Positions 557-64,000 of a stretch of DNA of 64,000 nucleotides are shown in pieces. The notes beneath the pieces were generated by a model. The model searched no databases and was not told where the DNA came from. It was given only the letters and a program-made list of their open reading frames with translations. Source of the DNA: Haliclystus octoradiatus (lineage: Eukaryota; Cnidaria; Staurozoa; Stauromedusae; Haliclystidae); NCBI GenBank assembly GCA_916610825.1, contig OU744446.1:10008309-10072308 (forward strand). The letters are read 5' to 3'. Within the stretch, counting starts at the first letter, position 1; every line of letters begins with the position of its first letter. The translations under genes and the position numbers were made by a program.

Positions 557-11416
<10,860 letters not shown>

Positions 11417-27851: not shown

Positions 27852-27853
27852 GA

Positions 27854-29119: not shown

Positions 29120-29289
29120 TTCCAGTGTGAGGTTTCCAAACAGCATCAGCTTTAAACAATAATTGTTGTGCTCAACGTAATTAAATATCTCTTGAGGGTG
29201 ATCTTTTGTTTCTCAAACTGTATTTAGATCTCTTTGGATATAATTGAAAGCTATTTCGAAAAAATTTTTCGCTGCTCTGTTGTAGTTGT

Positions 29290-29889: not shown

Positions 29890-30031
29890 CACAGACGTAT
29901 ACAAAAGTGATTAATCACTTTGTCGTTATGATAAGTAAATAGATAAAAGATGATCAAAAGTTTTCATAACCAAAATGTCCAAAGAACACCATTCCTTTCC
30001 TGCCCATATTAATTCTTCCATTTGAGAAGCG

Positions 30032-30382
30032 CCAATAAGCAATTAGCGTCACTATTCATAGTAACCTTTAAAGACATTGAAGTGCGTATATTTATTTAAA
30101 AAGCGAATAAAAGTAACAATTAATGTTCGCTAAATATTGTGCCGTTGACCAATTATTACTACGTTGAAGCTTCTCAATCTCGAATAGCGTAAAAGTTTTT
30201 ATGACGACGACTGATGACGAAGAATCTTTTGCTGGAATACCAAAGATCACAAACTTGGATTTCTCAGAGAAGATGATAATTATCATTGTGACGCATTTCA
30301 TTGTTATCACGTGGTATATTTCCAGGCCACTTGAATAAGAATCTGTTGCTATGTTACTCAATTACTCTCAATCGTTTTCATG
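30032..30382 (+). promoter_or_regulatory. Conserved upstream region and putative non-coding first exon of the array gene (unit 1)
   Basis: In order: CCAAT (30032-30036), the 14-bp perfect palindrome ATGATAATTATCAT (30273-30286), TGACGCA (30289-30295, TGACGCAAT in inner units, like a CREB/ATF-C/EBP composite) and CACGTG (30308-30313) followed by gtatattt. A strong donor, CATG|GTGAGT, follows at 30382/30383. A matching acceptor (ttacctcag, about 30485) lies before the start codon, which suggests a spliced 5' UTR. All elements recur in every unit. Motif roles are inferred. Confidence 0.45.
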
Positions 30383-30542
30383 GTGAGTAGAAGTATGTAA
30401 ATGTTAACAGTTTTGTCTTCTATTTTATTAGTTGTAACCATAAAATTGGAACCTCAATTGTAATGAGTGATACTTTGTTACCTCAGATTGAAATCCATGA
30501 GGTTTTCAGAATTTAATTGGAGTAGATTAGTTATATTCGATT

Positions 30543-31181
30543 ATGGCAGTCATAAAAGTTGTACGAAAAGCAATGGCTGATATTCAGGTAAATAATTGAT
30601 AAGCAAACTGACAAATTCCACACTATCAATTGTGCAAAATCCTGTATTGCTTATGTAATGATGAAGGATACTAACATTGACATACCATGTGTAAATTTGC
30701 AGCGAGAAATTAAGGAGCGGTCGATTGGCGAAAGGCCAAAACGCCGTTGGAGAATGTCCTTGCAGCAAAGTTATCTAGTAAAGGTTGTCCCAGTCCCAGC
30801 TGCCCCGTTTGATAATGTATCTGCAATGTAAGCTTGACAACATATACATGTTCTAATTCATAGGCATAAATTAATTCAAAAAGATATTAAATGTTCATTT
30901 GATCGTATAGGTCAGAAATCAACCGTAGTCGCAAGAGGAAAAGAGAAATAATAGACAATAGCAACGACGACAATGACGATGAGCAATGCTCCCCTCCTGC
31001 AAGAAAAAGAAGGAAAGTATTTATAGAAAATATTAATGAAAGTACAATTAAAACTGAAAATAATAGTGAAGATAATAATGAACTAAACATCGCTATAGAT
31101 AAATTGATTGCTAACATGAGATTTGCATCAGATGCAGATCAAAAATTAAGTGAATGGGCAAACGAAATAATGAACATATAA
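30543..31181 (+). CDS. Array gene, copy 1: unknown 146-aa charged, probably nuclear protein
   Basis: Exons 30543-30587, 30703-30827 and 30911-31181 have consensus GT-AG borders and join to 147 codons including TAA. The first exon begins ATGGCAGTCATAAAAG. Exon 2 encodes a basic stretch (ERPKRRWRMSLQQSYLVK) and a Pro/Val segment (VVPVPAAP). Exon 3 encodes RSRKRKRE, an Asp/Asn/Glu run, a second basic cluster (PPARKRRKV), an acidic Asn-rich part, and a predicted helix ending EWANEIMNI. The two basic clusters resemble nuclear localisation signals. No signal peptide, membrane span or known catalytic motif is visible, and I do not recognise the family. AATAAA follows at 31337-31342. The gene model rests on the three frames staying open in all copies. 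This copy has REIID and RKVF in exon 3, a state shared with the last copy. Confidence 0.8.
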
Positions 31182-32490
31182 AATATTTTTAAAAACGTAA
31201 TGAGTATAACAAGGTTTAAAATATAATGTACTACATGAGCAGCAAATTTCTGGCATTGTATATGTAATTATAATAACTTCAACACATGTAACAAAAATTC
31301 TGTAATAGTGATTATCAAAATGTTTAAATTTTGAGGAATAAATTGGTTAATTTTTCCAAGGTATTAACTTTACATTTATAATTGAAGTATTTAGAAATCA
31401 AATAAAAGTTACAAAATACAAAAAATTTATATAGGAAAATGGGATAAATTGCTTAATTAATTAACCTAAAATAATATACGTATAACATAGATGATAGAAT
31501 ATTCTCTTTTTAATCTTCTTTTAACTAAATTCGAATATAAAACCGCTGGTAAGTATGATACTATTTGAAATCTATTTGATATAGTTTAACACATCATGTA
31601 TACCCATATTGCAATACGAATACAGCAAATAAGTAAATTTTTTGAATATTATCTTATTCATGAATTGTAATAATTTGATATCAATCGAATCATTAATGTT
31701 TATATATGTTATTTGAATTTAAAATGTAAACTGTTTAGATAAAACATAATATATATGGTTCTGATACCAATTCAAATTTGAATATCTTGTCATTGATGTG
31801 GTTTATTTCCGTGTCCTTTCGCTTTTCATTCTGATAGGTTGGACTTCACTCCCTTACATGAGACGATGATAATTCTTTAGCAATGGGCGTTGTCGTGCAT
31901 AGTTGTGTTCCTCCTAGATTTATTATTGCTTTGATCATTAAATACTGCATTTCACAGGACTTGACCAAACAGAGCGTAATAACTATCTATCTGCTACATT
32001 ACTATCCCAAGCAGACCTTTAATATTATAATCAACATACAAAAACATGTGCATTTTGTAAAATAATTCTAGCCTCAGAATGGCTTCATTGCGAAAATAAA
32101 CATACATTTACTTGCATGAATTACGAAATAACTGCATGACTTGTTCAAAATTATAATCATATTGTTGTCAAACTTACTTCAACTTTGTTTCCAAATAACA
32201 TCAAAATTTCATATTCCATTAAAACCATAATTCCAGTTCTTATAAATTGGAATTTAGTGTCTTATATCCGGTGGTAAATACTCTACACCAATGGGTGTTG
32301 TCCTGCATAAATATGTTCCTCCTAGATAATTAAGGCTGTGATCACACGGCTCAGATACGAAATCAAATAATGTAGTATTCAGTACTTAGCTACTCGTTGA
32401 TTATGAAATCAAATTCCACAGTCGCATACAAACGTGATTGATCATTTTGTCGTTATGGGAAGTGAATGGATAAAAGATCATCAAATATTT
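31182..32490 (+). other. Intergenic spacer of the array unit (first copy)
   Basis: AT-rich spacer between the gene and the next unit's upstream region. It contains a diverged internal direct duplication of about 90-100 bp (about 31828-31918 and 32236-32338), both parts ending ttcctcctagat. Neither the 60-codon + strand frame at 31883 nor other frames show coding character. Confidence 0.6.
31337..31342 (+). terminator. Polyadenylation signal of array gene copy 1
   Basis: AATAAA about 155 bp after the stop codon, kept in the corresponding place in every unit; a second CAAATAAAAG lies about 60 bp further on. Confidence 0.5.
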
Positions 32491-33071
32491 TCATAACCAA
32501 AATGTCCAAAGAACACCATTCCTTTCCTGCCCATATTAATTCTTCCATTTGAGAAGCGCCAATAAGCAATTAGCGTCACTATTCATAGTACTGTAACCTT
32601 TAAAGACATTGAAGTGCGTATATTTATTTAAAAAGTGAATAAAAGTAACAATTAATGTTCGCTAAATATTGTGCCGTTGACCAATTATTACTACGTTGAA
32701 GCTTCTCAATCTCGAATAGCGTAAAAGTTTTTATGACGACGACTGATAACGAAGAATCTTTTGCTGGAATACCAAAGATCACACACTTGGATTTCTCAGA
32801 GAAGATGATAATTATCATTGTGACGCAATTCATTGTTATCACGTGGTATATTTCCAGGCCACTTGAATAAGAATCTGTTGCTATGTTACTCAATTACTCT
32901 CAATCTTTTTCATGGTGAGTAGAAGTATGTTAACAGTTTTGTCTTCTATTTTATTAGTTGTAACCATAAAATTGGAACCTCAATTGTAATGAGTGATACT
33001 TTGTTACCTCACAGATTGAAATCCATGAGGTTTTGCAGAATTTTGTTGGAGTAGATTAGTTATATTCGATT

Positions 33072-33710
33072 ATGGCAGTCATAAAAGTTGTACGAAAAGC
33101 AATGGCTGATATTCAGGTAAATAATTGATAAGCAAACTGACAAATTCCACACTATCAATTGTGCAAAATCCTGTATTGCTTATGTAATGATGAAGGATAC
33201 TAACATTGACATACCATGTGTAAATTTGCAGCGAGAAATTAAGGAGCGGTCGATTGGCGAAAGGCCAAAACGCCGTTGGAGAATGTCCTTGCAGCAAAGT
33301 TATCTAGTAAAGGTTGTCCCAGTCCCAGCTGCCCCGTTTGATAATGTATCTGCAATGTAAGCTTGACAACATATACATGTTCTAATTCATAGGCATAAAT
33401 TAATTCAAAAAGATATTAAATGTTCATTTGATCGTATAGGTCAGAAATCAACCGTAGTCGCAAGAGGAAAAGAGAAAAAATAGACAATAGCAACGACGAC
33501 AATGACGATGAGCAATGCTCCCCTCCTGCAAGAAAAAGAAGGATAGTATTTATAGAAAATATTAATGAAAGTACAATTAAAACTGAAAATAATAGTGAAG
33601 ATAATAATGAACTAAACATCGCTATAGATAAATTGATTGCTAACATGAGATTTGCATCAGATGCAGATCAAAAATTAAGTGAATGGGCAAACGAAATAAT
33701 GAACATATAA
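33072..33710 (+). CDS. Array gene, copy 2 (subtype A)
   Basis: Exons 33072-33116, 33232-33356 and 33440-33710, open throughout. Compared with copy 1, exon 3 has Lys for Ile after KRE (REKID) and Ile for Lys in RRIVF. The upstream region carries gtgaataaaag, the subtype A marker. Confidence 0.8.
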
Positions 33711-35600
33711 ATTATTTTTAAAAACGTAATGAGTATAACAAGGTTTAAAATATAATGTACTACATGAGCAGCAAATTTCTGGCATTGTATATGTAATTAT
33801 AATAACTTCAACACATGTAACAAAAATTCTGTAATAGTGATTATCAAAATGTTTAAATTTTGAGGAATAAATTGGTTAATTTTTCCAAGGTATTAACTTT
33901 ACATTTATAATTGAAGTATTTAGAAATCAAATAAAAGTTACAAAATACAAAAAATTTATATAGGAAAATGGGATAAATTGCTTAATTAATTAACCTAAAA
34001 TAATATACGTATAACATAGATGATAGAATATTCTCTTTTTAATCTTCTTTTAACTAAATTCGAATATAAAACCGCTGGTAAGTATGATACTATTTGAAAT
34101 CTATTTGATATAGTTTAACACATCATGTATACCCATATTGCAATACGAATACAGCAAATAAGTAAATTTTTTGAATATTATCTTATTCATGAATTGTAAT
34201 AATTTGATATCAATCGAATCATTAATGTTTATATATGTTATTTGAATTTAAAATGTAAACTGTTTAGATAAAACATAATATATATGGTTCTGATACCAAT
34301 TCAAATTTGAATATCTTGTCATTGATGTGGTTTATTTCCGTGTCCTTTCGCTTTACATTCTGATAGGTTGGACTTCACTCCCTTACATGAGACGATGATA
34401 ATTCTTTTGCAATGGGCGTTGTCGTGCATAGTTGTGTTCCTCCTAGATTTATTATTGCTTTGATCATTAAATACTGCATTTCACAGGACTTGACCAAACA
34501 GAGCGTAATAACTATCTATCTGCTACATTACTATCCCAAGCAGACCTTTAATATTATAATCAACATACAAAAACATGTGCATCTTGTAAAATAATTCTAG
34601 CCTCAGAATGGCTTCATTGCGAAAATAAACATACATTTACTTGCATGAATTACGAAATAACTGCATGACTTGTTCAAAATTATAATCATATTGTTGTCAA
34701 ACTTACTTCAACTTTGTTTCCAAATAACATCAAAATTTCATATTCCATTAAAACCATAATTCCAGTTCTTATAAATTGGAATTTAGTGTCTTATATCCGG
34801 TGGTAAATACTCTACACCAATGGGTGTTGTCCTGCATAAATATGTTCCTCCTAGATAATTAAGGCTGTGATCACACGGCTCAGATACGAAATCCAATAAT
34901 GTAGTATTCAGTACTTAGCTACTCGTTGATTATGAAATCAAATTCCACAGTCGCATACAAACGTGATTGATCATTTTGTCGTTATGGGAAGTGAATGGAT
35001 AAAAGATCATCAAATATTTTCATAACCAAAATGTCCAAAGAACACCATTCCTTTCCTGCCCATATTAATTCTTCCATTTGAGAAGCGCCAATAAGCAATT
35101 AGCGTCACTATTCATAGTACTGTAACCTTTAAAGACATTGAAGTGCGTATATTTATTTAAAAAGCGAATAAAAGTAACAATTAATGTTCGCTAAATATTG
35201 TGCCGTTGACCAATTATTACTACGTTGAATCTTCTCAATCTCGAATAGCGTAAAAGTTTTTATGACGACGACTGATAACGAAGAATCTTTTGCTGGAATA
35301 CCAAAGATCACACACTTGGATTTCTCAGAGAAGATGATAATTATCATTGTGACGCAATTCATTGTTATCACGTGGTATATTTCCAGGCCACTTGAATAAG
35401 AATCTGTTGCTATGTTACTCAATTACTCTCAATCTTTTTCATGGTGAGTAGAAGTATGTTAACAGTTTTGTCTTCTATTTTATTAGTTGTAACCATAAAA
35501 TTGGAACCTCAATTGTAATGAGTGATACTTTGTTACCTCACAGATTGAAATCCATGAGGTTTTGCAGAATTTTGTTGGAGTAGATTAGTTATATTCGATT

Positions 35601-36239
35601 ATGGCAGTCATAAAAGTTGTACGAAAAGCAATGGCTGATATTCAGGTAAATAATTGATAAGCAAACTGACAAATTCCACACTATCAATTGTGCAAAATCC
35701 TGTATTGCTTATGTAATGATGAAGGATACTAACATTGACATACCATGTGTAAATTTGCAGCGAGAAATTAAGGAGCGGTCGATTGGCGAAAGGCCAAAAC
35801 GCCGTTGGAGAATGTCCTTGCAGCAAAGTTATCTAGTAAAGGTTGTCCCAGTCCCAGCTGCCCCGTTTGATAATGTATCTGCAATGTAAGCTTGACAACA
35901 TATACATGTTCTAATTCATAGGCATAAATTAATTCAAAAAGATATTAAATGTTCATTTGATCGTATAGGTCAGAAATCAACCGTAGTCGCAAGAGGAAAA
36001 GAGAAAAAATAGACAATAGCAACGACGACAATGACGATGAGCAATGCTCCCCTCCTGCAAGAAAAAGAAGGATAGTATTTATAGAAAATATTAATGAAAG
36101 TACAATTAAAACTGAAAATAATAGTGAAGATAATAATGAACTAAACATCGCTATAGATAAATTGATTGCTAACATGAGATTTGCATCAGATGCAGATCAA
36201 AAATTAAGTGAATGGGCAAACGAAATAATGAACATATAA
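35601..36239 (+). CDS. Array gene, copy 3 (subtype B)
   Basis: Exons 35601-35645, 35761-35885 and 35969-36239. The encoded protein appears the same as copy 2. Subtype B has gttgaatcttc upstream (others gttgaagcttc). The spacer after it has aaattcctggc and caacccatg, shared only with copy 8. Confidence 0.8.
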
Positions 36240-38129
36240 ATTATTTTTAAAAACGTAATGAGTATAACAAGGTTTAAAATATAATGTACTACATGAGCAG
36301 CAAATTCCTGGCATTGTATATGTAATTATAATAACTTCAACCCATGTAACAAAAATTCTGTAATAGTGATTATCAAAATGTTTAAATTTTGAGGAATAAA
36401 TTGGTTAATTTTTCCAAGGTATTAACTTTACATTTATAATTGAAGTATTTAGAAATCAAATAAAAGTTACAAAATACAAAAAATTTATATAGGAAAATGG
36501 GATAAATTGCTTAATTAATTAACCTAAAATAATATACGTATAACATAGATGATAGAATATTCTCTTTTTAATCTTCTTTTAACTAAATTCGAATATAAAA
36601 CCGCTGGTAAGTATGATACTATTTGAAATCTATTTGATATAGTTTAACACATCATATATACCCATATTGCAATACGAATACAGCAAATAAGTAAAGTTTT
36701 TGAATATTATCTTATTCATGAATTGTAATAATTTGATATCAATCGAATCATTAATGTTTATATATGTTATTTGAATTTAAAATGTAAACTGTTTAGATAA
36801 AACATAATACATATGGTTCTGATACCAATTCAAATTTGAATATCTTGTCATTGATGTGGTTTATTTCCGTGTCCTTTCGCTTCTCATTCTGATAGGTTGG
36901 ACTTCACTCCCTTACATGAGACGATGATAATTCTTTAGCAATGGGCGTTGTCGTGCATAGTTGTGTTCCTCCTAGATTTATTATTGCTTTGATCATTAAA
37001 TACTGCATTTCACAGGACTTGACCAAACAGAGCGTAATAACTATCTATCTGCTACATTACTATCCCAAGCAGACCTTTAATATTATAATCAACATACAAA
37101 AACATGTGCATTTTGTAAAATAATTCTAGCCTCAGAATGGCTTCATTGCGAAAATAAACATACATTTACTTGCATGAATTACGAAATAACTGCATGACTT
37201 GTTCAAAATTATAATCATATTGTTGTCAAACTTCCTTCAACTTTGTTTCCAAATAACATCAAAATTTCATATTCCTTTAAAACCATAATTCCAGTTCTTA
37301 TAAATTGGAATTTAGTGTCTTATATCCGGTGGTAAATACTCTACACCAATGGGTGTTGTCCTGCATAAATATGTTCCTCCTAGATAATTAAGGCTGTGAT
37401 CACACGGCTCAGATACGAAATCCAATAATGTAGTATTCAGTACTTAGCTACTCGTTGATTATGAAATCAAATTCCACAGTCGCATACAAACGTGATTGAT
37501 CATTTTGTCGTTATGGGAAGTGAATGGATAAAAGATCATCAAATATTTTCATAACCAAAATGTCCAAAGAACACCATTCCTTTCCTGCCCATATTAATTC
37601 TTCCATTTGAGAAGCGCCAATAAGCAATTAGCGTCACTATTCATAGTACTGTAACCTTTAAAGACATTGAAGTGCGTATATTTATTTAAAAAGCGAATAA
37701 AAGTAACAATTAATGTTCGCTAAATATTGTGCCGTTGACAAATTATTACTACGTTGAAGCTTCTCAATCTCGAATAGCGTAAAAGTTTTTATGACGACGA
37801 CTGATAACGAAGAATCTTTTGCTGGAATACCAAAGATCACACACTTGGATTTCTCAGAGAAGATGATAATTATCATTGTGACGCAATTCATTGTTATCAC
37901 GTGGTATATTTCCAGGCCACTTGAATAAGAATCTGTTGCTATGTTACTCAATTACTCTCAATCTTTTTCATGGTGAGTAGAAGTATCTTAACAGTTTTGT
38001 CTTCTATTTTATTAGTTGTAACCATAAAATTGGAACCTCAATTGTAATGAGTGATACTTTGTTACCTCACAGATTGAAATCCATGAGGTTTTTCAGAATT
38101 TTGTTGGAGTAGATTAGTTATATTCGATT

Positions 38130-38768
38130 ATGGCAGTCATAAAAGTTGTACGAAAAGCAATGGCTGATATTCAGGTAAATAATTGATAAGCAAACTGACA
38201 AATTCCACACTATCAATTGTGAAAAATCCTGTATTGCTCATTTAATGATGAAGGATACTAACATTGACATACCATGTGTAAATTTGCAGCGAGAAATTAA
38301 GGAGCGGTCGATTGGCGAAAGGCCAAAACGCCGTTGGAGAATGTCCTTGCAGCAAAGTTATCTAGTAAAGGTTGTCCCAGTCCCAGCTGCCCCGTTTGAT
38401 AATGTATCTGAAATGTAAGCTTGACAACATATACATGTTCTAATTCATAGGCATAAATTAATTCAAAAAGATATTAAATATTAATTTGATCGTATAGGTC
38501 AGAAATCAACCGTAGTCGCAAGAGCAAAGGAGAAATAATAGACAATAGCAACGACGACAATGACGATGAGCAATGCTCCCCTCCTGCAAGAAAAAGAAGG
38601 AAAGTATTTATAGAAAATATTAATGAAAGTACAATTAAAACTAAAAATAATAGTGAAGATAATAATGAACTAAATATCGCTATAGATAAATTGATTGCAA
38701 ACATGAGATTTGCATCAGATGCAGATCAAAAATTAAGTGAATGGGCAAACGAAATAATGAACATATAA
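38130..38768 (+). CDS. Array gene, copy 4 (subtype C, protein variant)
   Basis: Exons 38130-38174, 38290-38414 and 38498-38768. The exon 2/3 junction reads SEM instead of SAM. The first basic cluster is weakened (RKSKGEIID instead of RKRKREKID), the second keeps RKVF, and TKNN replaces TENN. The frame stays open, so this is a coding variant and not a dead copy. Confidence 0.8.
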
Positions 38769-40657: not shown

Positions 40658-41296
40658 ATGGCAGTCATAAAAGTTGTACGAAAAGCAATGGCTGATATTC
40701 AGGTAAATAATTGATAAGCAAACTGACAAATTCCACACTATCAATTGTGCAAAATCCTGTATTGCTTATGTAATGATGAAGGATACTAACATTGACATAC
40801 CATGTGTAAATTTGCAGCGAGAAATTAAGGAGCGGTCGATTGGCGAAAGGCCAAAACGCCGTTGGAAAATGTCCTTGCAGCAAAGTTATCTAGTAAAGGT
40901 TGTCCCAGTCCCAGCTGCCCCGTTTGATAATGTATCTGCAATGTAAGCTTGACAACATATACATGTTCTAATTCATAGGCATAAATTAATTCAAAAAGAT
41001 ATTAAATGTTCATTTGATCGTATAGGTCAGAAATCAACCGTAGTCGCAAGAGGAAAAGAGAAAAAATAGACAATAGCAACGACGACAATGACGATGAGCA
41101 ATGCTCCCCTCCTGCAAGAAAAAGAAGGATAGTATTTATAGAAAATATTAATGAAAGTACAATTAAAACTGAAAATAATAGTGAAGATAATAATGAACTA
41201 AACATCGCTATAGATAAATTGATTGCTAACATGAGATTTGCATCAGATGCAGATCAAAAATTAAGTGAATGGGCAAACGAAATAATGAACATATAA
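40658..41296 (+). CDS. Array gene, copy 5 (subtype A, RRWKM variant)
   Basis: Exons 40658-40702, 40818-40942 and 41026-41296. Exon 2 has Lys for Arg in RRWKM, shared with copies 10 and 11; otherwise like copy 2. Confidence 0.8.
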
Positions 41297-43186: not shown

Positions 43187-43825
43187 ATGGCAGTCATAAA
43201 AGTTGTACGAAAAGCAATGGCTGATATTCAGGTAAATAATTGATAAGCAAACTGACAAATTCCACACTATCAATTGTGCAAAATCCTGTATTGCTTATGT
43301 AATGATGAAGGATACTAACATTGACATACCATGTGTAAATTTGCAGCGAGAAATTAAGGAGCGGTCGATTGGCGAAAGGCCAAAACGCCGTTGGAGAATG
43401 TCCTTGCAGCAAAGTTATCTAGTAAAGGTTGTCCCAGTCCCAGCTGCCCCGTTTGATAATGTATCTGCAATGTAAGCTTGACAACATATACATGTTCTAA
43501 TTCATAGGCATAAATTAATTCAAAAAGATATTAAATGTTCATTTGATCGTATAGGTCAGAAATCAACCGTAGTCGCAAGAGGAAAAGAGAAAAAATAGAC
43601 AATAGCAACGACGACAATGACGATGAGCAATGCTCCCCTCCTGCAAGAAAAAGAAGGATAGTATTTATAGAAAATATTAATGAAAGTACAATTAAAACTG
43701 AAAATAATAGTGAAGATAATAATGAACTAAACATCGCTATAGATAAATTGATTGCTAACATGAGATTTGCATCAGATGCAGATCAAAAATTAAGTGAATG
43801 GGCAAACGAAATAATGAACATATAA
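43187..43825 (+). CDS. Array gene, copy 6 (subtype B)
   Basis: Exons 43187-43231, 43347-43471 and 43555-43825. The encoded protein appears like copy 2. The following spacer has cgaaatcaaataatg, shared with the spacer after copy 1. Confidence 0.8.
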
Positions 43826-45715: not shown

Positions 45716-46354
45716 ATGGCAGTCATAAAAGTTGTACGAAAAGCAATGGCTGATATTCAGGTAAATAATTGATAAGCAAACTGACAAATTCCACACTATC
45801 AATTGTGCAAAATCCTGTATTGCTTATGTAATGATGAAGGATACTAACATTGACATACCATGTGTAAATTTGCAGCGAGAAATTAAGGAGCGGTCGATTG
45901 GCGAAAGGCCAAAACGCCGTTGGAGAATGTCCTTGCAGCAAAGTTATCTAGTAAAGGTTGTCCCAGTCCCAGCTGCCCCGTTTGATAATGTATCTGCAAT
46001 GTAAGCTTGACAACATATACATGTTCTAATTCATAGGCATAAATTAATTCAAAAAGATATTAAATGTTCATTTGATCGTATAGGTCAGAAATCAACCGTA
46101 GTCGCAAGAGGAAAAGAGAAAAAATAGACAATAGCAACGACGACAATGACGATGAGCAATGCTCCCCTCCTGCAAGAAAAAGAAGGATAGTATTTATAGA
46201 AAATATTAATGAAAGTACAATTAAAACTGAAAATAATAGTGAAGATAATAATGAACTAAACATCGCTATAGATAAATTGATTGCTAACATGAGATTTGCA
46301 TCAGATGCAGATCAAAAATTAAGTGAATGGGCAAACGAAATAATGAACATATAA
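45716..46354 (+). CDS. Array gene, copy 7 (subtype A)
   Basis: Exons 45716-45760, 45876-46000 and 46084-46354. Like copy 2, including the spacer markers ctttacattctg and attcttttgcaatggg seen only after copies 2 and 7. Confidence 0.8.
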
Positions 46355-48244: not shown

Positions 48245-48883
48245 ATGGCAGTCATAAAAGTTGTACGAAAAGCAATGGCTGATATTCAGGTAAATAATTG
48301 ATAAGCAAACTGACAAATTCCACACTATCAATTGTGCAAAATCCTGTATTGCTTATGTAATGATGAAGGATACTAACATTGACATACCATGTGTAAATTT
48401 GCAGCGAGAAATTAAGGAGCGGTCGATTGGCGAAAGGCCAAAACGCCGTTGGAGAATGTCCTTGCAGCAAAGTTATCTAGTAAAGGTTGTCCCAGTCCCA
48501 GCTGCCCCGTTTGATAATGTATCTGCAATGTAAGCTTGACAACATATACATGTTCTAATTCATAGGCATAAATTAATTCAAAAAGATATTAAATGTTCAT
48601 TTGATCGTATAGGTCAGAAATCAACCGTAGTCGCAAGAGGAAAAGAGAAAAAATAGACAATAGCAACGACGACAATGACGATGAGCAATGCTCCCCTCCT
48701 GCAAGAAAAAGAAGGATAGTATTTATAGAAAATATTAATGAAAGTACAATTAAAACTGAAAATAATAGTGAAGATAATAATGAACTAAACATCGCTATAG
48801 ATAAATTGATTGCTAACATGAGATTTGCATCAGATGCAGATCAAAAATTAAGTGAATGGGCAAACGAAATAATGAACATATAA
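48245..48883 (+). CDS. Array gene, copy 8 (subtype B)
   Basis: Exons 48245-48289, 48405-48529 and 48613-48883. Like copy 3, with the same private spacer differences, so it is the counterpart of copy 3 in a five-unit duplication. Confidence 0.8.
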
Positions 48884-50773: not shown

Positions 50774-51412
50774 ATGGCAGTCATAAAAGTTGTACGAAAA
50801 GCAATGGCTGATATTCAGGTAAATAATTGATAAGCAAACTGACAAATTCCACACTATCAATTGTGAAAAATCCTGTATTGCTCATTTAATGATGAAGGAT
50901 ACTAACATTGACATACCATGTGTAAATTTGCAGCGAGAAATTAAGGAGCGGTCGATTGGCGAAAGGCCAAAACGCCGTTGGAGAATGTCCTTGCAGCAAA
51001 GTTATCTAGTAAAGGTTGTCCCAGTCCCAGCTGCCCCGTTTGATAATGTATCTGAAATGTAAGCTTGACAACATATACATGTTCTAATTCATAGGCATAA
51101 ATTAATTCAAAAAGATATTAAATATTAATTTGATCGTATAGGTCAGAAATCAACCGTAGTCGCAAGAGCAAAGGAGAAATAATAGACAATAGCAACGACG
51201 ACAATGACGATGAGCAATGCTCCCCTCCTGCAAGAAAAAGAAGGAAAGTATTTATAGAAAATATTAATGAAAGTACAATTAAAACTAAAAATAATAGTGA
51301 AGATAATAATGAACTAAATATCGCTATAGATAAATTGATTGCAAACATGAGATTTGCATCAGATGCAGATCAAAAATTAAGTGAATGGGCAAACGAAATA
51401 ATGAACATATAA
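50774..51412 (+). CDS. Array gene, copy 9 (subtype C, protein variant)
   Basis: Exons 50774-50818, 50934-51058 and 51142-51412. Carries the subtype C changes SEM, RKSKGEIID and TKNN. Its spacer has aaatacgaaaaattt, shared with copy 13 but not copy 4. Confidence 0.8.
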
Positions 51413-53301: not shown

Positions 53302-53940
53302 ATGGCAGTCATAAAAGTTGTACGAAAAGCAATGGCTGATATTCAGGTAAATAATTGATAAGCAAACTGACAAATTCCACACTATCAATTGTGCAAAATC
53401 CTGTATTGCTTATGTAATGATGAAGGATACTAACATTGACATACCATGTGTAAATTTGCAGCGAGAAATTAAGGAGCGGTCGATTGGCGAAAGGCCAAAA
53501 CGCCGTTGGAAAATGTCCTTGCAGCAAAGTTATCTAGTAAAGGTTGTCCCAGTCCCAGCTGCCCCGTTTGATAATGTATCTGCAATGTAAGCTTGACAAC
53601 ATATACATGTTCTAATTCATAGGCATAAATTAATTCAAAAAGATATTAAATGTTCATTTGATCGTATAGGTCAGAAATCAACCGTAGTCGCAAGAGGAAA
53701 AGAGAAAAAATAGACAATAGCAACGACGACAATGACGATGAGCAATGCTCCCCTCCTGCAAGAAAAAGAAGGATAGTATTTATAGAAAATATTAATGAAA
53801 GTACAATTAAAACTGAAAATAATAGTGAAGATAATAATGAACTAAACATCGCTATAGATAAATTGATTGCTAACATGAGATTTGCATCAGATGCAGATCA
53901 AAAATTAAGTGAATGGGCAAACGAAATAATGAACATATAA
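53302..53940 (+). CDS. Array gene, copy 10 (subtype A, RRWKM variant)
   Basis: Exons 53302-53346, 53462-53586 and 53670-53940. Counterpart of copy 5, five units away, with the same RRWKM change. Confidence 0.8.
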
Positions 53941-55830
53941 ATTATTTTTAAAAACGTAATGAGTATAACAAGGTTTAAAATATAATGTACTACATGAGCA
54001 GCAAATTTCTGGCATTGTATATGTAATTATAATAACTTCAACACATGTAACAAAAATTCTGTAATAGTGATTATCAAAATGTTTAAATTTTGAGGAATAA
54101 ATTGGTTAATTTTTCCAAGGTATTAACTTTACATTTATAATTGAAGTATTTAGAAATCAAATAAAAGTTACAAAATACAAAAAATTTATATAGGAAAATG
54201 GGATAAATTGCTTAATTAATTAACCTAAAATAATATACGTATAACATAGATGATAGAATATTCTCTTTTTAATCTTCTTTTAACTAAATTCGAATATAAA
54301 ACCGCTGGTAAGTATGATACTATTTGAAATCTATTTGATATAGTTTAACACATCATGTATACCCATATTGCAATACGAATACAGCAAATAAGTAAATTTT
54401 TTGAATATTATCTTATTCATGAATTGTAATAATTTGATATCAATCGAATCATTAATGTTTATATATGTTATTTGAATTTAAAATGTAAACTGTTTAGATA
54501 AAACATAATATATATGGTTCTGATACCAATTCAAATTTGAATATCTTGTCATTGATGTGGTTTATTTCCGTGTCCTTTCGCTTTTCATTCTGATAGGTTG
54601 GACTTCACTCCCTTACATGAGACGATGATAATTCTTTAGCAATGGGCGTTGTCGTGCATAGTTGTGTTCCTCCTAGATTTATTATTGCTTTGATCATTAA
54701 ATACTGCATTTCACAGGACTTGACCAAACAGAGCGTAATAACTATCTATCTGCTACATTACTATCCCAAGCAGACCTTTAATATTATAATCAACATACAA
54801 AAACATGTGCATCTTGTAAAATAATTCTAGCCTCAGAATGGCTTCATTGCGAAAATAAACATACATTTACTTGCATGAATTACGAAATAACTGCATGACT
54901 TGTTCAAAATTATAATCATATTGTTGTCAAACTTACTTCAACTTTGTTTCCAAATAACATCAAAATTTCATATTCCATTAAAACCATAATTCCAGTTCTT
55001 ATAAATTGGAATTTAGTGTCTTATATCCGGTGGTAAATACTCTACACCAATGGGTGTTGTCCTGCATAAATATGTTCCTCCTAGATAATTAAGGCTGTGA
55101 TCACACGGCTCAGATACGAAATCCAATAATGTAGTATTCAGTACTTAGCTACTCGTTGATTATGAAATCAAATTCCACAGTCGCATACAAACGTGATTGA
55201 TCATTTTGTCGTTATGGGAAGTGAATGGATAAAAGATCATCAAATATTTTCATAACCAAAATGTCCAAAGAACACCATTCCTTTCCTGCCCATATTAATT
55301 CTTCCATTTGAGAAGCGCCAATAAGCAATTAGCGTCACTATTCATAGTACTGTAACCTTTAAAGACATTGAAGTGCGTATATTTATTTAAAAAGCGAATA
55401 AAAGTAACAATTAATGTTCGCTAAATATTGTGCCGTTGACCAATTATTACTACGTTGAATCTTCTCAATCTCGAATAGCGTAAAAGTTTTTATGACGACG
55501 ACTGATAACGAAGAATCTTTTGCTGGAATACCAAAGATCACACACTTGGATTTCTCAGAGAAGATGATAATTATCATTGTGACGCAATTCATTGTTATCA
55601 CGTGGTATATTTCCAGGCCACTTGAATAAGAATCTGTTGCTATGTTACTCAATTACTCTCAATCTTTTTCATGGTGAGTAGAAGTATGTTAACAGTTTTG
55701 TCTTCTATTTTATTAGTTGTAACCATAAAATTGGAACCTCAATTGTAATGAGTGATACTTTGTTACCTCACAGATTGAAATCCATGAGGTTTTGCAGAAT
55801 TTTGTTGGAGTAGATTAGTTATATTCGATT

Positions 55831-56469
55831 ATGGCAGTCATAAAAGTTGTACGAAAAGCAATGGCTGATATTCAGGTAAATAATTGATAAGCAAACTGAC
55901 AAATTCCACACTATCAATTGTGCAAAATCCTGTATTGCTTATGTAATGATGAAGGATACTAACATTGACATACCATGTGTAAATTTGCAGCGAGAAATTA
56001 AGGAGCGGTCGATTGGCGAAAGGCCAAAACGCCGTTGGAAAATGTCCTTGCAGCAAAGTTATCTAGTAAAGGTTGTCCCAGTCCCAGCTGCCCCGTTTGA
56101 TAATGTATCTGCAATGTAAGCTTGACAACATATACATGTTCTAATTCATAGGCATAAATTAATTCAAAAAGATATTAAATGTTCATTTGATCGTATAGGT
56201 CAGAAATCAACCGTAGTCGCAAGAGGAAAAGAGAAAAAATAGACAATAGCAACGACGACAATGACGATGAGCAATGCTCCCCTCCTGCAAGAAAAAGAAG
56301 GATAGTATTTATAGAAAATATTAATGAAAGTACAATTAAAACTGAAAATAATAGTGAAGATAATAATGAACTAAACATCGCTATAGATAAATTGATTGCT
56401 AACATGAGATTTGCATCAGATGCAGATCAAAAATTAAGTGAATGGGCAAACGAAATAATGAACATATAA
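55831..56469 (+). CDS. Array gene, copy 11 (subtype B upstream, RRWKM variant)
   Basis: Exons 55831-55875, 55991-56115 and 56199-56469. It combines the subtype B upstream marker with the RRWKM change otherwise found in subtype A copies 5 and 10. This suggests gene conversion or unequal crossover inside the gene. Confidence 0.8.
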
Positions 56470-58359
56470 ATTATTTTTAAAAACGTAATGAGTATAACAA
56501 GGTTTAAAATATAATGTACTACATGAGCAGCAAATTTCTGGCATTGTATATGTAATTATAATAACTTCAACACATGTAACAAAAATTCTGTAATAGTGAT
56601 TATCAAAATGTTTAAATTTTGAGGAATAAATTGGTTAATTTTTCCAAGGTATTAACTTTACATTTATAATTGAAGTATTTAGAAATCAAATAAAAGTTAC
56701 AAAATACAAAAAATTTATATAGGAAAATGGGATAAATTGCTTAATTAATTAACCTAAAATAATATACGTATAACATAGATGATAGAATATTCTCTTTTTA
56801 ATCTTCTTTTAACTAAATTCGAATATAAAACCGCTGGTAAGTATGATACTATTTGAAATCTATTTGATATAGTTTAACACATCATGTATACCCATATTGC
56901 AATACGAATACAGCAAATAAGTAAATTTTTTGAATATTATCTTATTCATGAATTGTAATAATTTGATATCAATCGAATCATTAATGTTTATATATGTTAT
57001 TTGAATTTAAAATGTAAACTGTTTAGATAAAACATAATATATATGGTTCTGATACCAATTCAAATTTGAATATCTTGTCATTGATGTGGTTTATTTCCGT
57101 GTCCTTTCGCTTTTCATTCTGATAGGTTGGACTTCACTCCCTTACATGAGACGATGATAATTCTTTAGCAATGGGCGTTGTCGTGCATAGTTGTGTTCCT
57201 CCTAGATTTATTATTGCTTTGATCATTAAATACTGCATTTCACAGGACTTGACCAAACAGAGCGTAATAACTATCTATCTGCTACATTACTATCCCAAGC
57301 AGACCTTTAATATTATAATCAACATACAAAAACATGTGCATCTTGTAAAATAATTCTAGCCTCAGAATGGCTTCATTGCGAAAATAAACATACATTTACT
57401 TGCATGAATTACGAAATAACTGCATGACTTGTTCAAAATTATAATCATATTGTTGTCAAACTTACTTCAACTTTGTTTCCAAATAACATCAAAATTTCAT
57501 ATTCCATTAAAACCATAATTCCAGTTCTTATAAATTGGAATTTAGTGTCTTATATCCGGTGGTAAATACTCTACACCAATGGGTGTTGTCCTGCATAAAT
57601 ATGTTCCTCCTAGATAATTAAGGCTGTGATCACACGGCTCAGATACGAAATCCAATAATGTAGTATTCAGTACTTAGCTACTCGTTGATTATGAAATCAA
57701 ATTCCACAGTCGCATACAAACGTGATTGATCATTTTGTCGTTATGGGAAGTGAATGGATAAAAGATCATCAAATATTTTCATAACCAAAATGTCCAAAGA
57801 ACACCATTCCTTTCCTGCCCATATTAATTCTTCCATTTGAGAAGCGCCAATAAGCAATTAGCGTCACTATTCATAGTACTGTAACCTTTAAAGACATTGA
57901 AGTGCGTATATTTATTTAAAAAGCGAATAAAAGTAACAATTAATGTTCGCTAAATATTGTGCCGTTGACCAATTATTACTACGTTGAATCTTCTCAATCT
58001 CGAATAGCGTAAAAGTTTTTATGACGACGACTGATAACGAAGAATCTTTTGCTGGAATACCAAAGATCACACACTTGGATTTCTCAGAGAAGATGATAAT
58101 TATCATTGTGACGCAATTCATTGTTATCACGTGGTATATTTCCAGGCCACTTGAATAAGAATCTGTTGCTATGTTACTCAATTACTCTCAATCTTTTTCA
58201 TGGTGAGTAGAAGTATGTTAACAGTTTTGTCTTCTATTTTATTAGTTGTAACCATAAAATTGGAACCTCAATTGTAATGAGTGATACTTTGTTACCTCAC
58301 AGATTGAAATCCATGAGGTTTTGCAGAATTTTGTTGGAGTAGATTAGTTATATTCGATT

Positions 58360-58998
58360 ATGGCAGTCATAAAAGTTGTACGAAAAGCAATGGCTGATAT
58401 TCAGGTAAATAATTGATAAGCAAACTGACAAATTCCACACTATCAATTGTGCAAAATCCTGTATTGCTTATGTAATGATGAAGGATACTAACATTGACAT
58501 ACCATGTGTAAATTTGCAGCGAGAAATTAAGGAGCGGTCGATTGGCGAAAGGCCAAAACGCCGTTGGAGAATGTCCTTGCAGCAAAGTTATCTAGTAAAG
58601 GTTGTCCCAGTCCCAGCTGCCCCGTTTGATAATGTATCTGCAATGTAAGCTTGACAACATATACATGTTCTAATTCATAGGCATAAATTAATTCAAAAAG
58701 ATATTAAATGTTCATTTGATCGTATAGGTCAGAAATCAACCGTAGTCGCAAGAGGAAAAGAGAAAAAATAGACAATAGCAACGACGACAATGACGATGAG
58801 CAATGCTCCCCTCCTGCAAGAAAAAGAAGGATAGTATTTATAGAAAATATTAATGAAAGTACAATTAAAACTGAAAATAATAGTGAAGATAATAATGAAC
58901 TAAACATCGCTATAGATAAATTGATTGCTAACATGAGATTTGCATCAGATGCAGATCAAAAATTAAGTGAATGGGCAAACGAAATAATGAACATATAA
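58360..58998 (+). CDS. Array gene, copy 12 (subtype B)
   Basis: Exons 58360-58404, 58520-58644 and 58728-58998. The encoded protein appears like copy 2. Two subtype B upstream regions stand in a row here (copies 11 and 12), breaking the A-B alternation. Confidence 0.8.
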
Positions 58999-60888
58999 AT
59001 TATTTTTAAAAACGTAATGAGTATAACAAGGTTTAAAATATAATGTACTACATGAGCAGCAAATTTCTGGCATTGTATATGTAATTATAATAACTTCAAC
59101 ACATGTAACAAAAATTCTGTAATAGTGATTATCAAAATGTTTAAATTTTGAGGAATAAATTGGTTAATTTTTCCAAGGTATTAACTTTACATTTATAATT
59201 GAAGTATTTAGAAATCAAATAAAAGTTACAAAATACAAAAAATTTATATAGGAAAATGGGATAAATTGCTTAATTAATTAACCTAAAATAATATACGTAT
59301 AACATAGATGATAGAATATTCTCTTTTTAATCTTCTTTTAACTAAATTCGAATATAAAACCGCTGGTAAGTATGATACTATTTGAAATCTATTTGATATA
59401 GTTTAACACATCATATATACCCATATTGCAATACGAATACAGCAAATAAGTAAAGTTTTTGAATATTATCTTATTCATGAATTGTAATAATTTGATATCA
59501 ATCGAATCATTAATGTTTATATATGTTATTTGAATTTAAAATGTAAACTGTTTAGATAAAACATAATACATATGGTTCTGATACCAATTCAAATTTGAAT
59601 ATCTTGTCATTGATGTGGTTTATTTCCGTGTCCTTTCGCTTCTCATTCTGATAGGTTGGACTTCACTCCCTTACATGAGACGATGATAATTCTTTAGCAA
59701 TGGGCGTTGTCGTGCATAGTTGTGTTCCTCCTAGATTTATTATTGCTTTGATCATTAAATACTGCATTTCACAGGACTTGACCAAACAGAGCGTAATAAC
59801 TATCTATCTGCTACATTACTATCCCAAGCAGACCTTTAATATTATAATCAACATACAAAAACATGTGCATTTTGTAAAATAATTCTAGCCTCAGAATGGC
59901 TTCATTGCGAAAATAAACATACATTTACTTGCATGAATTACGAAATAACTGCATGACTTGTTCAAAATTATAATCATATTGTTGTCAAACTTCCTTCAAC
60001 TTTGTTTCCAAATAACATCAAAATTTCATATTCCATTAAAACCATAATTCCAGTTCTTATAAATTGGAATTTAGTGTCTTATATCCGGTGGTAAATACTC
60101 TACACCAATGGGTGTTGTCCTGCATAAATATGTTCCTCCTAGATAATTAAGGCTGTGATCACACGGCTCAGATACGAAATCCAATAATGTAGTATTCAGT
60201 ACTTAGCTACTCGTTGATTATGAAATCAAATTCCACAGTCGCATACAAACGTGATTGATCATTTTGTCGTTATGGGAAGTGAATGGATAAAAGATCATCA
60301 AATATTTTCATAACCAAAATGTCCAAAGAACACCATTCCTTTCCTGCCCATATTAATTCTTCCATTTGAGAAGCGCCAATAAGCAATTAGCGTCACTATT
60401 CATAGTACTGTAACCTTTAAAGACATTGAAGTGCGTATATTTATTTAAAAAGCGAATAAAAGTAACAATTAATGTTCGCTAAATATTGTGCCGTTGACAA
60501 ATTATTACTACGTTGAAGCTTCTCAATCTCGAATAGCGTAAAAGTTTTTATGACGACGACTGATAATGAAGAATCTTTTGCTGGAATACCAAAGATCACA
60601 CACTTGGATTTCTCAGAGAAGATGATAATTATCATTGTGACGCAATTCATTGTTATCACGTGGTATATTTCCAGGCCACTTGAATAAGAATCTGTTGCTA
60701 TGTTACTCAATTACTCTCAATCTTTTTCATGGTGAGTAGAAGTATCTTAACAGTTTTGTCTTCTATTTTATTAGTTGTAACCATAAAATTGGAACCTCAA
60801 TTGTAATGAGTGATACTTTGTTACCTCACAGATTGAAATCCATGAGGTTTTTCAGAATTTTGTTGGAGTAGATTAGTTATATTCGATT

Positions 60889-61527
60889 ATGGCAGTCATA
60901 AAAGTTGTACGAAAAGCAATGGCTGATATTCAGGTAAATAATTGATAAGCAAACTGACAAATTCCACACTATCAATTGTGAAAAATCCTGTATTGCTCAT
61001 TTAATGATGAAGGATACTAACATTGACATACCATGTGTAAATTTGCAGCGAGAAATTAAGGAGCGGTCGATTGGCGAAAGGCCAAAACGCCGTTGGAGAA
61101 TGTCCTTGCAGCAAAGTTATCTAGTAAAGGTTGTCCCAGTCCCAGCTGCCCCGTTTGATAATGTATCTGAAATGTAAGCTTGACAACATATACATATTCT
61201 AATTCATAGGCATAAATTAATTCAAAAAGATATTAAATATTAATTTGATCGTATAGGTCAGAAATCAACCGTAGTCGCAAGAGCAAAGGAGAAATAATAG
61301 ACAATAGCAACGACGACAATGACGATGAGCAATGCTCCCCTCCTGCAAGAAAAAGAAGGAAAGTATTTATAGAAAATATTAATGAAAGTACAATTAAAAC
61401 TAAAAATAATAGTGAAGATAATAATGAACTAAATATCGCTATAGATAAATTGATTGCTAACATGAGATTTGCATCAGATGCAGATCAAAAATTAAGTGAA
61501 TGGGCAAACGAAATAATGAACATATAA
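60889..61527 (+). CDS. Array gene, copy 13 (subtype C, protein variant)
   Basis: Exons 60889-60933, 61049-61173 and 61257-61527. Subtype C protein changes as in copies 4 and 9, with a silent difference (GCT for GCA) late in exon 3. Confidence 0.8.
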
Positions 61528-63409
61528 AATATTTTTAAAAACGTAATAAGTAAATCAAGGTTTAAAATATAATGTACTACAGGAGCAGCAAAATTCTGGC
61601 ATTGTATATGTAATTATAATAACTTCAACACATGTAACAAAAATTCTATAATAGTGATTATCAAAATGTTTAAATTTTGAGGAATAAATTGGTTAATTTT
61701 CCAAGGTATTAACTTTAGATTAATAATTAAAGTATTTAGAAATCAAATAAAAGTTACAAAATACGAAAAATTTATATAGGAAAATGGGATAAATTGCTTA
61801 ATTAATTAACCTAAAATAATATACGTATAACATAAATGATAGAATATTCTCTTTTTAATCTTCTTTTAACTAAATTCGAATATAAAACCGCTGGTAAGTA
61901 TGATACTATTTGAAATCTATTTGATATAGTTTAACACATCATATATACCCATATTGCAATACGAATACAGCAAATAAGTAAATGTTTTGAATATTATCTT
62001 ATTCATGAATTGTAATAATTTGATATCAATCGAATCATTAATGTTTATATATGTTATTTGAATTTAAAATGTAAACTGTTTAGATAAAACATAATATATA
62101 TGGTTCTGATACCAATTCAAATTTGAATATCTTGTCATTGATGTGGTTTATTTCCGTGTCCTTTCGCTTCTCATTCTGATAGGTTGGACTTCACTCCCTT
62201 ACATGGGACGATGATAATTCTTTAGCAATGGGCGTTGTCGTGCATAGTTGTGTTCCTCCTAGATTTATTATTGCTTTGAACATTAAATACTGCATTTCAC
62301 AGGACTTGACCAAACAGAGCGTAATAACTATTTATCTGCTACATTACTATCCCAAGCAGACCTTTAATATTATAATCAACATACAAAAACATGTGCATTT
62401 TGTAAAATAATTCTAGCCTCAGAATGGCTTCATTGCGAAAATAAACATACATTTACTTGCATGAATTACGAAATAACTGCATGACTTGTTCAAAATTATA
62501 ATCATATTGTTGTCAAACTTACTTCAACTTTGTTTCCAAATAACATCAAAATTTCATATTCCATTAAAACCATAATTCCAGTTCTTATAAATTGGAATTT
62601 AGTGTCTTATATCTGGTGGTAAATACTCTACACCAATGGGTGTTGTCCTGCATAAATATTTTCCTCCTAGATAATTAAGGCTGTGATCACACGGCTCAGA
62701 TACGAAATCCAATAATGTAGTAAGCAGTACTTAGCTACTCGGTGATTATGAAATCAAATTCCACAGTCGCATACAAAAGTGAATGATCACTTTGTCGTTA
62801 TTCGAAGTGAATGGATAAAAGATCATCAAATATTTTCATAACCAAAATGTCCATAGAACACCATTCCTTTCAAGCCCATATTAATTCTTCCATTTGAAAA
62901 GCGCCAATAAGCAATTAGCGTCACTATTCATAGTAACCTTTAAAGACATTGAAGTACGTATATTTATTTAAAAAGCGAATAAAAGTAACAATTAATGTTC
63001 GCTAAATATTGTGCCGTTGACCAATTATTACTACGTTGCAGCTTCTCAATCTCGAATAGCGTAAAAATTGGATGACGACGACTGATAACGTAGAATCTTT
63101 TGCTGGAATACCAAAGATCACACACTTGGATTTCTCAGAGAAGATGATAATTATCATTGTGACGCAATTCATTGTTATCACGTGGTATATTTCCAGGCCA
63201 CTTGAATAAGAATCTGTTGCTATGTTACTCAATTACTCTCAATCTTTTTCATGGTGAGTAGAAGTATGTTAACAGTTTTGTCTTCTATTTTATTAGTTGT
63301 AACCATAAAAGTGGAACCTCAATTTTAATGAGTGATACTTTGTTACCTCACAGATTGAAATCCATGAGGTTTTCAGAACTTTATCGGAGTAGATTAGTTA
63401 TATTCGATT

Positions 63410-64000
63410 ATGGCAGTCATAAAAGTTGTACGAAAAGCAATGGCTGATATTCAGGTAAATAATTGATAAGCAAACTGACAAATTCCAAACTATCAATTGT
63501 GCAAAATCCTGTATTGCTTATGTAATGATGAAGGATACTAACATTGACATACCATGTGTAAATTTGCAGCGAGAAATTAAGGAGCGGTCGATTGGCGAAA
63601 GGCCAAAACGCCGTTGGAGAATGTCCTTGCAGCAAAGTTATCTAGTAAAGGTTGTTCCAGTCCCAGCTGCCCCGTTTGATAATGTATCTGCAATGTAAGC
63701 TTGACAACATATACATGTTTTAATTCATAGGCATAAATTAATTCAAAAAGATATTAAATGATGATTTGATCGTATAGGTCAGAAATCAACCGTAGTCGCA
63801 AGAGGAAAAGAGAAATAATAGACAATAGCAACGACGACAATGACGATGAGCAATGCTCCCCTCCTGCAAGAAAAAGAAGGAAAGTATTTATAGAAAATAT
63901 TAATGAAAGTACAATTAAAACTGAAAACAATAGTGAAGATAATAATGAACTAAACATCGCTATAGATAAATTGATTGCTAACATGAGATTTGCATCAGAT
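63410..64000 (+). CDS. Array gene, copy 14 (cut by window end)
   Basis: Exons 63410-63454 and 63570-63694, with exon 3 from 63778 running off the window about 48 bp before its expected stop. Exon 3 has REIID and RKVF like copy 1. The upstream part has more substitutions than inner copies and lacks the ctgta insertion typical of copies 2-13. It resembles copy 1 and may be near the other edge of the array. Confidence 0.75.

Follow-up and report, generated by a model that had tools for sequence, protein, structure and literature searches.

A probable protein gene of no recognised family amplified into two opposed tandem arrays on chromosome 1 of the staurozoan Haliclystus octoradiatus

Background

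Homogenised arrays of protein genes with as many copies as described here are uncommon, and the known ones encode bulk products, toxins or conflict genes. Histone genes form tandem protein-coding units with their own spacers and are homogenised, a layout that the present array shares. Each histone unit contains several genes, the bulk genes are intronless, and the products have a known fold; here there is instead one spliced gene per unit and no known fold.

In the sea anemone Nematostella, the venom peptide Nv1 is encoded by a cluster of at least 12 genes (PMC6802032). Our locus differs from Nv1 in having approximately 84 copies that carry exon 3, in encoding a probably nuclear 146-aa protein of no recognised family, and in showing no signal peptide by eye. 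A study of Hydractinia and Nematostella describes tandem arrays of non-coding RNA genes, including rRNA, tRNA, snRNA and the like (PMC11067881). At our locus, by contrast, the conserved element is an open reading frame with introns. The locus also resembles Stellate and Suppressor of Stellate of Drosophila, where a small protein gene is amplified in tandem alongside a second amplified set. Stellate is a casein kinase II beta homologue, X-linked and suppressed via Y piRNAs (PMC10618873); of the Stellate system, the present locus shows the paired amplified arrays and none of these other features. A limited literature search found no published description of the array.

Array structure and extent

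We analysed a window of 64,000 nucleotides on chromosome 1 (C1) of H. octoradiatus (assembly GCA_916610825.1, contig OU744446.1, positions 10,008,309 to 10,072,308). An insect origin was considered and rejected: the mitochondrial contig of the assembly, C33, reads TGA inside cox1 and, judged by eye, carries rnl-cox1 on one strand with cox2-trnW-atp8-atp6 on the other. The main array starts near window position 30030 and runs beyond the window end to C1:10200716, for a total of 162 kb. BLASTN with the first unit as query recovers 13 full units in the window and one cut by its end, all on the + strand, which agrees with the first-pass annotation of head-to-tail copies of about 2.53 kb. The features of the window, in window coordinates, are as follows.

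30030..64000, + strand: array of ~2.53-kb units, 13 full and one cut, continuing to C1:10200716
29889..30036, + strand: decayed partial unit tail at the left array edge, 92% identity
29296..29545, + strand: further upstream, more decayed stretches like the intergenic part of the unit (BLASTN, roughly 74-86% identity)
30543..31181, + strand: gene copy 1, 146 aa; exons 30543-30587, 30703-30827, 30911-31181
32900..32914, + strand: 3' end of the predicted non-coding first exon of copy 2; donor CATG/GTGAGT, intron 32915-33014
33072..33710, + strand: gene copy 2; exons 33072-33116, 33232-33356, 33440-33710
35601..36239, + strand: gene copy 3; exons 35601-35645, 35761-35885, 35969-36239
38130..38768, + strand: gene copy 4, with the same coding sequence as copy 9 and almost the same as copy 13; exons 38130-38174, 38290-38414, 38498-38768
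40658..41296, + strand: gene copy 5, with R32K, common to copies 5, 10 and 11; exons 40658-40702, 40818-40942, 41026-41296
43187..43825, + strand: gene copy 6; exons 43187-43231, 43347-43471, 43555-43825
45716..46354, + strand: gene copy 7; exons 45716-45760, 45876-46000, 46084-46354
48245..48883, + strand: gene copy 8; exons 48245-48289, 48405-48529, 48613-48883
50774..51412, + strand: gene copy 9; exons 50774-50818, 50934-51058, 51142-51412
53302..53940, + strand: gene copy 10; exons 53302-53346, 53462-53586, 53670-53940
55831..56469, + strand: gene copy 11; exons 55831-55875, 55991-56115, 56199-56469
58360..58998, + strand: gene copy 12; exons 58360-58404, 58520-58644, 58728-58998
60889..61527, + strand: gene copy 13; exons 60889-60933, 61049-61173, 61257-61527
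63410..64000, + strand: gene copy 14, running off the window end; exons 63410-63454, 63570-63694, 63778 onward

Gene-to-gene distances are 2521-2529 bp among the window copies, and units across the main array are mostly 2.51-2.53 kb. The 12 other full units in the window are 97.4-98.9% identical to unit 1, the unit cut by the window end is 97.3% identical, and whole-unit matches along the entire main array range from 95.9 to 98.9%. Chance is excluded because this identity extends over several kilobases with frame and splice sites kept. With its head-to-tail order and near-identical coding and spacer sequence, the main array is a concerted array, and variants recur along it. It contains a gap of 200 N and holds 64 modelled genes plus one truncated copy. 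The earlier figure of at least 14 copies is therefore right for the window but an undercount for the locus, since the window ends inside the array; there is, in addition, a second, inverted array.

The second array has approximately 27 units and lies 194 kb upstream of the main one, on the opposite strand (about C1:9785406-9844714). The units read, four of them in full, are 84-86% identical overall to the main array and about 93-97% identical in exons. Exon 3 is whole and open in 16 of the 20 units that have it, while seven of the ~27 units have lost exon 3 together with the last part of exon 2. Together, the main array (64) and the second array (20) account for the ~84 copies bearing exon 3.

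A search of the assembly with exon 3 (E<=10) gives 92 matches, 91 of them at 9.787-10.433 Mb on C1; the last is on C8 at a chance-level E of 8.65, and no other convincing copy was found in the assembly outside the C1 array region. Relic fragments occur at C1:10431859-10433191, 231 kb downstream of the main array. This confinement to one 0.65-Mb region, with no dispersal, argues against an origin as a mobile-element accessory gene that later came to be arranged in tandem, which we regard as highly improbable. A MULE-type transposase frame, an Ulp1-type protease and a PHD finger are indeed found ~2-10 kb upstream in the window, and the relic copies appear by eye to stand beside inverted repeats, but the array protein has no match in the left 29.9 kb of the window (best tblastn E 1.3) and the unit has no frame longer than 92 aa.

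Gene model and copy integrity

Each unit contains a gene of three coding exons preceded by a plausible, predicted non-coding first exon. All 14 window copies are open with GT-AG introns, as the first-pass annotation had it, and 13 encode the 146-aa protein; copy 14 is open over its 131 aa inside the window and is whole and intact in the contig. Both coding introns are GT-AG in 67/67 modelled copies (64 in the main array and three of the four read in the second). The predicted first-exon donor is kept in 64/64 main-array copies and the acceptor pattern in 62. A further upstream frame starting ATGACGACG (copy 2, within 32700-32870) was considered as coding, but it meets an earlier stop in the second-array sequence and we treat it as 5' leader.

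Coding frames are intact in 52 of the 64 main-array copies and so, as with exon 3 in the second array, are kept in most copies. The earlier proposal of a protein gene with introns, in copies homogenised along the array, is thereby supported. None of the 12 broken copies falls inside the window, which is why broken copies had gone unseen. Ten of the 12 have an identical 69-aa end, so the dead allele has itself been multiplied. The 22.65-kb spacing of these amplified 69-aa alleles would fit a clear nine-unit higher-order block, which is supported only in part: one 20-kb pair in this register is 99.5% identical versus 98.6-98.9% one unit off, other pairs in register (98.6-99.0%) are no better than one unit off, and a pair at 45.3 kb is better off register (99.3% versus 98.8%).

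The spread of one truncated allele to 10 copies is consistent with a gene-bearing satellite, in which a gene that functioned at its first duplication now sits in an array that grows and shrinks by unequal exchange, most copies are unexpressed or unneeded, and frames are open through youth and not selection. The high identity of whole units to unit 1 indicates that the copies are young, and the relics and edge units show the kind of decay typical of satellites. Depletion of broken alleles is only mild, with one nonsense and two frameshift events where non-coding rates predict ~4.3 stop alleles and ~4 indels. We nevertheless consider a satellite unlikely, on account of the divergence patterns described below.

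Predicted protein

The product is 17 kDa with a predicted pI of 9.1. It contains the two basic clusters noted in the first-pass annotation, at residues 64-68 and 88-92, with an acidic stretch between them. Pfam gives no family above cut-off, the only hit being Pox_Ag35 at 18 bits (cut-off 28.3, residues 55-127), and a PDB search returns nothing at E<=10. A protein collection gives 23 candidates, none at E<=10, a result that says little as the collection may lack cnidarian proteins. The protein thus stays unrecognised, as first described, and in Pfam and PDB it has no match to histones or to any other known family of nuclear proteins. Exon 2 was considered as a possible relative of the IER family, a reading dropped because Pfam gives no such match at E<=10.

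The basic clusters, pI and high copy number could suit a protein that packs sperm DNA or chromatin, is required in large amounts and was amplified like histone genes. This is very improbable, as K+R content is moderate (12 in the first 60 residues, 11 in residues 61-95), acidic residues are common, histones and other Pfam families give no match above cut-off, and broken copies are tolerated.

Structure prediction covered exon 3 only, from five near-identical sequences, and is weak (mean pLDDT 64.7, pTM 0.29). Residues ~109-144 are predicted to form one long helix, with pLDDT block means of 71-87, and prediction is poor elsewhere in exon 3.

A virus-derived gene was also considered and has no confirmed relative in IMG/VR, where six pattern matches to viral contigs were found, none confirmed, in a search that reaches close relatives only. 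An array of RNA genes was rejected: Rfam, searched with a single 7-kb segment of the array (window 29000-36000), gives nothing at E<=1, and ARAGORN, run with the bacterial code, finds no tRNA in the window.

Divergence and selection

Copy 2 differs from four second-array copies by 3.2-6.7% in exons, 4.5-10.4% in introns and 16-18% downstream of the gene. Upstream of the ATG, divergence between arrays is 5.9-8.6%, below that of the spacer. Copies are more alike within than between arrays, as five main-array copies differ from copy 2 by 0.3-5.3% in post-gene sequence. Low divergence of introns and upstream sequence between arrays could mean gene-centred conversion rather than selection. Five comparisons between arrays, which all involve the same second-array copy, give dN/dS values of 0.31-0.49.

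We counted variant alleles in the 52 intact copies, leaving out the 12 broken ones, with expected numbers from the non-coding mutation spectrum of 57 units. Residues 107-146 have 7 silent and 2 replacement alleles (expected 3.0 and 14.2), a silent excess with a binomial p of 1.3e-4 for boundaries chosen after looking; once the choice of boundaries is allowed for, a scan yields p 0.011 over residues 95-142. The C-terminal end of the protein is thus apparently under selection. Residues 30-106 have 5 silent and 29 replacement alleles (expected 7.5 and 28.8), showing no constraint. Residues 1-29 contain 1 variant versus ~14 expected, silent sites included, a paucity beyond explanation by protein-level selection alone. 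Over the whole protein there are 12 silent and 32 replacement alleles (expected 13.8 and 53.9), and constraint within the array is loose.

Diversity and indels were taken from 57 of 62 delimited units, five of odd length being dropped, including one that spans the N gap. Diversity is 0.011 in exon 2 and 0.009 in exon 3, not below intron 1 (0.009); the zero diversity of exon 1 is an artefact of the exon-1 seed used to delimit units, which misses substituted exon 1s. Exons have 3 indel events in 441 bp versus 20 in ~2,090 bp elsewhere, not clearly rarer.

A passive satellite would not be expected to show the exon/spacer contrast between arrays or the C-terminal silent excess, and because of these two patterns the locus is probably a protein gene, not a plain satellite, and homogenised by recombination. 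The first-pass annotation held that a dN/dS near 1 with frequent stops would indicate a plain satellite. Overall we find otherwise, although the broken copies and the unconstrained middle approach it, and the middle by itself would pass for one.

Free change in the middle residues but not in the C-terminal part is also what a conflict or dosage-driven locus could show, where transmission bias by the gene or its RNA, or a contest with a suppressor, drives an arms race in copy number, and the inverted array would be a rival or silencing partner, by analogy with Stellate. Two amplified arrays in opposite orientation, 194 kb apart and 84-86% identical overall but about 93-97% in exons, fit such a locus, as do the absence of convincing copies elsewhere in the assembly and the loss of exon 3 and the end of exon 2 from seven second-array units. 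We find it improbable, as the genome note gives sex chromosomes as not applicable (PMC9975415) and the open exon 3 of most second-array units makes that array look like a second coding array, not a suppressor. A more specific version is similarly improbable: a young, staurozoan-specific conflict or dosage system built on a nuclear protein with selected copy number, a free middle and a fixed C-terminal interaction helix, in which the second array would have evolved into a rival or regulator.

Proposed origin and significance

We favour, with some reserve, a real protein gene, known only from H. octoradiatus, that was amplified into two opposed arrays with copies kept alike by exchange. Unequal exchange would have produced the two oppositely oriented tandem arrays, and exchange together with gene conversion would keep the copies alike. 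Each unit may have its own promoter and non-coding first exon, so that many copies may be transcribed. The product may enter the nucleus via its basic clusters and, through its predicted, conserved C-terminal helix, serve in protein interaction or regulation. The many copies may give high dosage, or may simply be tolerated. The likeliest reading is that the arrays may encode a dosage-amplified nuclear interaction or regulatory protein; composition alone suggests nuclear location and dosage, and dosage amplification, also proposed in the first-pass annotation, is something that we continue to infer.

PolyA RNA-seq of the same specimen exists (ERR9434978; PMC9975415). With ~84 copies in a little-studied, early-branching class of animals, this orphan and possibly nuclear gene would represent a bulk nuclear product or a conflict locus, new in either case. 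The two arrays, the relics and the public reads from the sequenced animal make the choice between bulk product and conflict directly testable.

Main array and its gene

The first-pass annotation proposed a tandem array of a spliced gene for a 146-amino-acid protein, in at least 14 copies. The array is real and bigger than that, with 64 modelled genes and a truncated one on the plus strand. It ends at position 10200716 of chromosome 1 (contig OU744446.1), within a unit and shortly past exon 1. The true gene number is uncertain because of a 200-N assembly gap inside the array (10089132-10089331), which lies near irregular units of 2,723 and 2,081 bp.

In the window (10008309-10072308 of chromosome 1), 13 complete units are followed by a cut one, all head to tail, with a gene spacing of 2521-2529 bp. 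The three exons of a full copy measure 45, 125 and 271 bp, counting the stop codon, and encode 146 amino acids; the frames are open in 14 of 14 window copies. Among the 64 main-array frames, 29 have 146 amino acids, 23 have 145 (one codon missing, frame kept), 10 have 69, one has 18 (nonsense) and one has 114 (frameshift). The 69-amino-acid copies are frameshifted with a common end in all 10, and the single copy read letter by letter has a one-base deletion.

Upstream of the coding exons, all 64 main-array copies keep the donor CATG/GTGAGTAGA; 62 also show an acceptor pattern and 61 a 100-bp intron, so the non-coding first exon suggested earlier is plausible on sequence grounds. A perfect palindrome, ATGATAATTATCAT, lies upstream of the second gene copy (window 32805-32845), with CACGTG 20-odd bases further by eye; both are possible promoter elements.

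The product has a computed mass of 17.0 kDa and pI of 9.1. It has basic clusters at 64 (RKRKR) and 88 (RKRRK) with an acidic stretch in between, and we predict from these clusters that it may enter the nucleus. Exon 3, folded on its own, is predicted to form a single long C-terminal helix (mean pLDDT 64.7 for the exon, with block means of 71-87 along the helix). The sole Pfam match, to Pox_Ag35 (residues 55-127), is sub-threshold. Searches with the array protein gave no match in PDB, IMG/VR or a protein collection whose cnidarian coverage is not established. The function of the gene and its dosage role are putative and unproved.

Genome setting

The assembly comprises 33 contigs (261.86 Mb), with 39,977,743 bases in chromosome 1. 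The published genome description gives 33 scaffolds, 262 Mb, a longest chromosome of 39,977,743 bases, 33.8% GC for chromosome 1 and polyA RNA-seq from the same specimen, ERR9434978 (PMC9975415). The mitochondrial contig, judged by eye, is compatible with a medusozoan. Upstream of the main array are pieces of UPF1, an RNA helicase (window 2535-11413), and several frames (window 20236-28084) that perhaps belong to a MULE element carrying domains of the Ulp1 and PHD types.

Features upstream of the main array
2535-2885: UPF1 1B domain (Pfam E 1.2e-23; PDB UPF1 matches)
10572-11413: UPF1 serine/glutamine-rich tail (by eye only; without Pfam match)
within 20236-28084: MULE-type transposase frame (PF10551 and ZSWIM1-3 RNaseH-like)
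within 20236-28084: basic frame with SWIM-like cysteine/histidine motif (by eye; without Pfam match)
within 20236-28084: Ulp1-type protease (PF02902, slightly above cut-off)
within 20236-28084: PHD finger (slightly below cut-off)

The second array and outlying relics

Searching the assembly with the protein, with 150 of 189 candidates scored, found extra minus-strand copies at 9.787-9.844 Mb of chromosome 1 and one near 10.433 Mb. Family matches by exon 2 alone (93 of 93 candidates scored) and exon 3 alone (92 matches; 96 of 96 scored) all lie between 9.787 and 10.434 Mb; these assembly-wide searches gave no family match outside this region, the single other row (C8, E 8.65) being chance-level.

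The second array and the main array are oriented away from one another. By exon 2, the second array has about 27 units: 19 whole, one damaged and seven cut after residue 18-19. Exon 3 is present in 20 units, whole and open in 16, and has no match at any of the seven cut units. These seven (9798593-9823742) have the exon 2 cut in common, and three adjacent ones are spaced at 1,871 bp; they are apparently a shorter unit type spread by exchange. The second array was read directly in its outer 10 kb only, where unit spacing is about 2.31-2.33 kb and identity to the main-array unit is 84-86%. The four units there include two full-length frames (one with the first ATG lost), one frameshifted and one unmodellable.

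About 231 kb past the main array, two partial gene copies lie in tandem on the minus strand (1000-4500 of the stretch L043). These relics are broken, are without exon 1 and adjoin apparent long inverted repeats (by eye).

Protein gene or satellite

We conclude with fair confidence that the array unit is a protein gene and not a plain satellite. GT-AG is kept at both coding introns in 67 of 67 modelled copies, a count that leaves aside two unmodellable copies, one in the second array and the truncated one at the end of the main array. Between the second window copy and four second-array copies, divergence is 4.4-6.7% for exon 1, 3.2-5.6% for exon 2 and 3.3-5.2% for exon 3. Introns 1 and 2 differ by 9.4-10.4% and 4.5-6.0%, the sequence preceding the ATG by 5.9-8.6% and that following the gene by 16-18%. 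The dN/dS between arrays is 0.31-0.49 (one second-array copy against five main-array copies). Coding variants number 44 alleles over 441 positions in 52 intact copies versus 261 over 1,720 non-coding positions in 57 units (Fisher p 0.0045, on these differing copy sets). Residues 107-146 carry seven silent and two replacement changes (expected 3.0 and 14.2; binomial p 1.3e-4, limits picked post hoc), and a scan correcting for region choice gives p 0.011.

Several results weaken the protein-gene reading. The whole protein, with 12 silent and 32 replacement changes versus 13.8 and 53.9 expected, is under mild constraint only, and residues 30-106 have five silent and 29 replacement changes (expected 7.5 and 28.8). 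Twelve of the 64 main-array copies are broken, depletion of exon indels (three) is not clear, and diversity of exons 2 and 3 within the main array is not below that of intron 1. Residues 1-29 have no silent and one replacement change (expected 3.3 and 10.9); this stretch, which covers exon 1 and the beginning of exon 2, is nearly variant-free, silent sites too (1 versus about 14 expected). The dS between arrays (0.06-0.086) is far under the divergence of the spacers, and gene-centred conversion may therefore play a part.

Proposed homogenisation and related systems

Unequal exchange and conversion are established routes of tandem-array evolution. Window copies 4 and 9 have a coding sequence in common, to which copy 13 is nearly identical, and copies 5, 10 and 11 have another. 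Farther right in the main array, the 69-amino-acid alleles recur at a spacing of 22,645-22,646 bp. One 20-kb pair at this spacing has 99.5% identity versus 98.6-98.9% one unit off; in the remaining tested pairs identity is no better than off register. Copies at the array edges are decayed. The shared alleles, recurrent spacing and decayed edges fit a history that we infer for this locus, of repeated unequal exchange, partly in blocks, with local conversion.

A limited literature search found no published description of the array, which does not prove absence. Among known systems, the Nv1 cluster of Nematostella (PMC6802032) comes closest, both by organisation and by phylum; tandem ncRNA arrays are known in Hydractinia and Nematostella (PMC11067881), and Stellate is a model of amplified small conflict genes (PMC10618873). 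The Haliclystus octoradiatus array falls among concerted tandem protein-gene arrays, and its product is an orphan.
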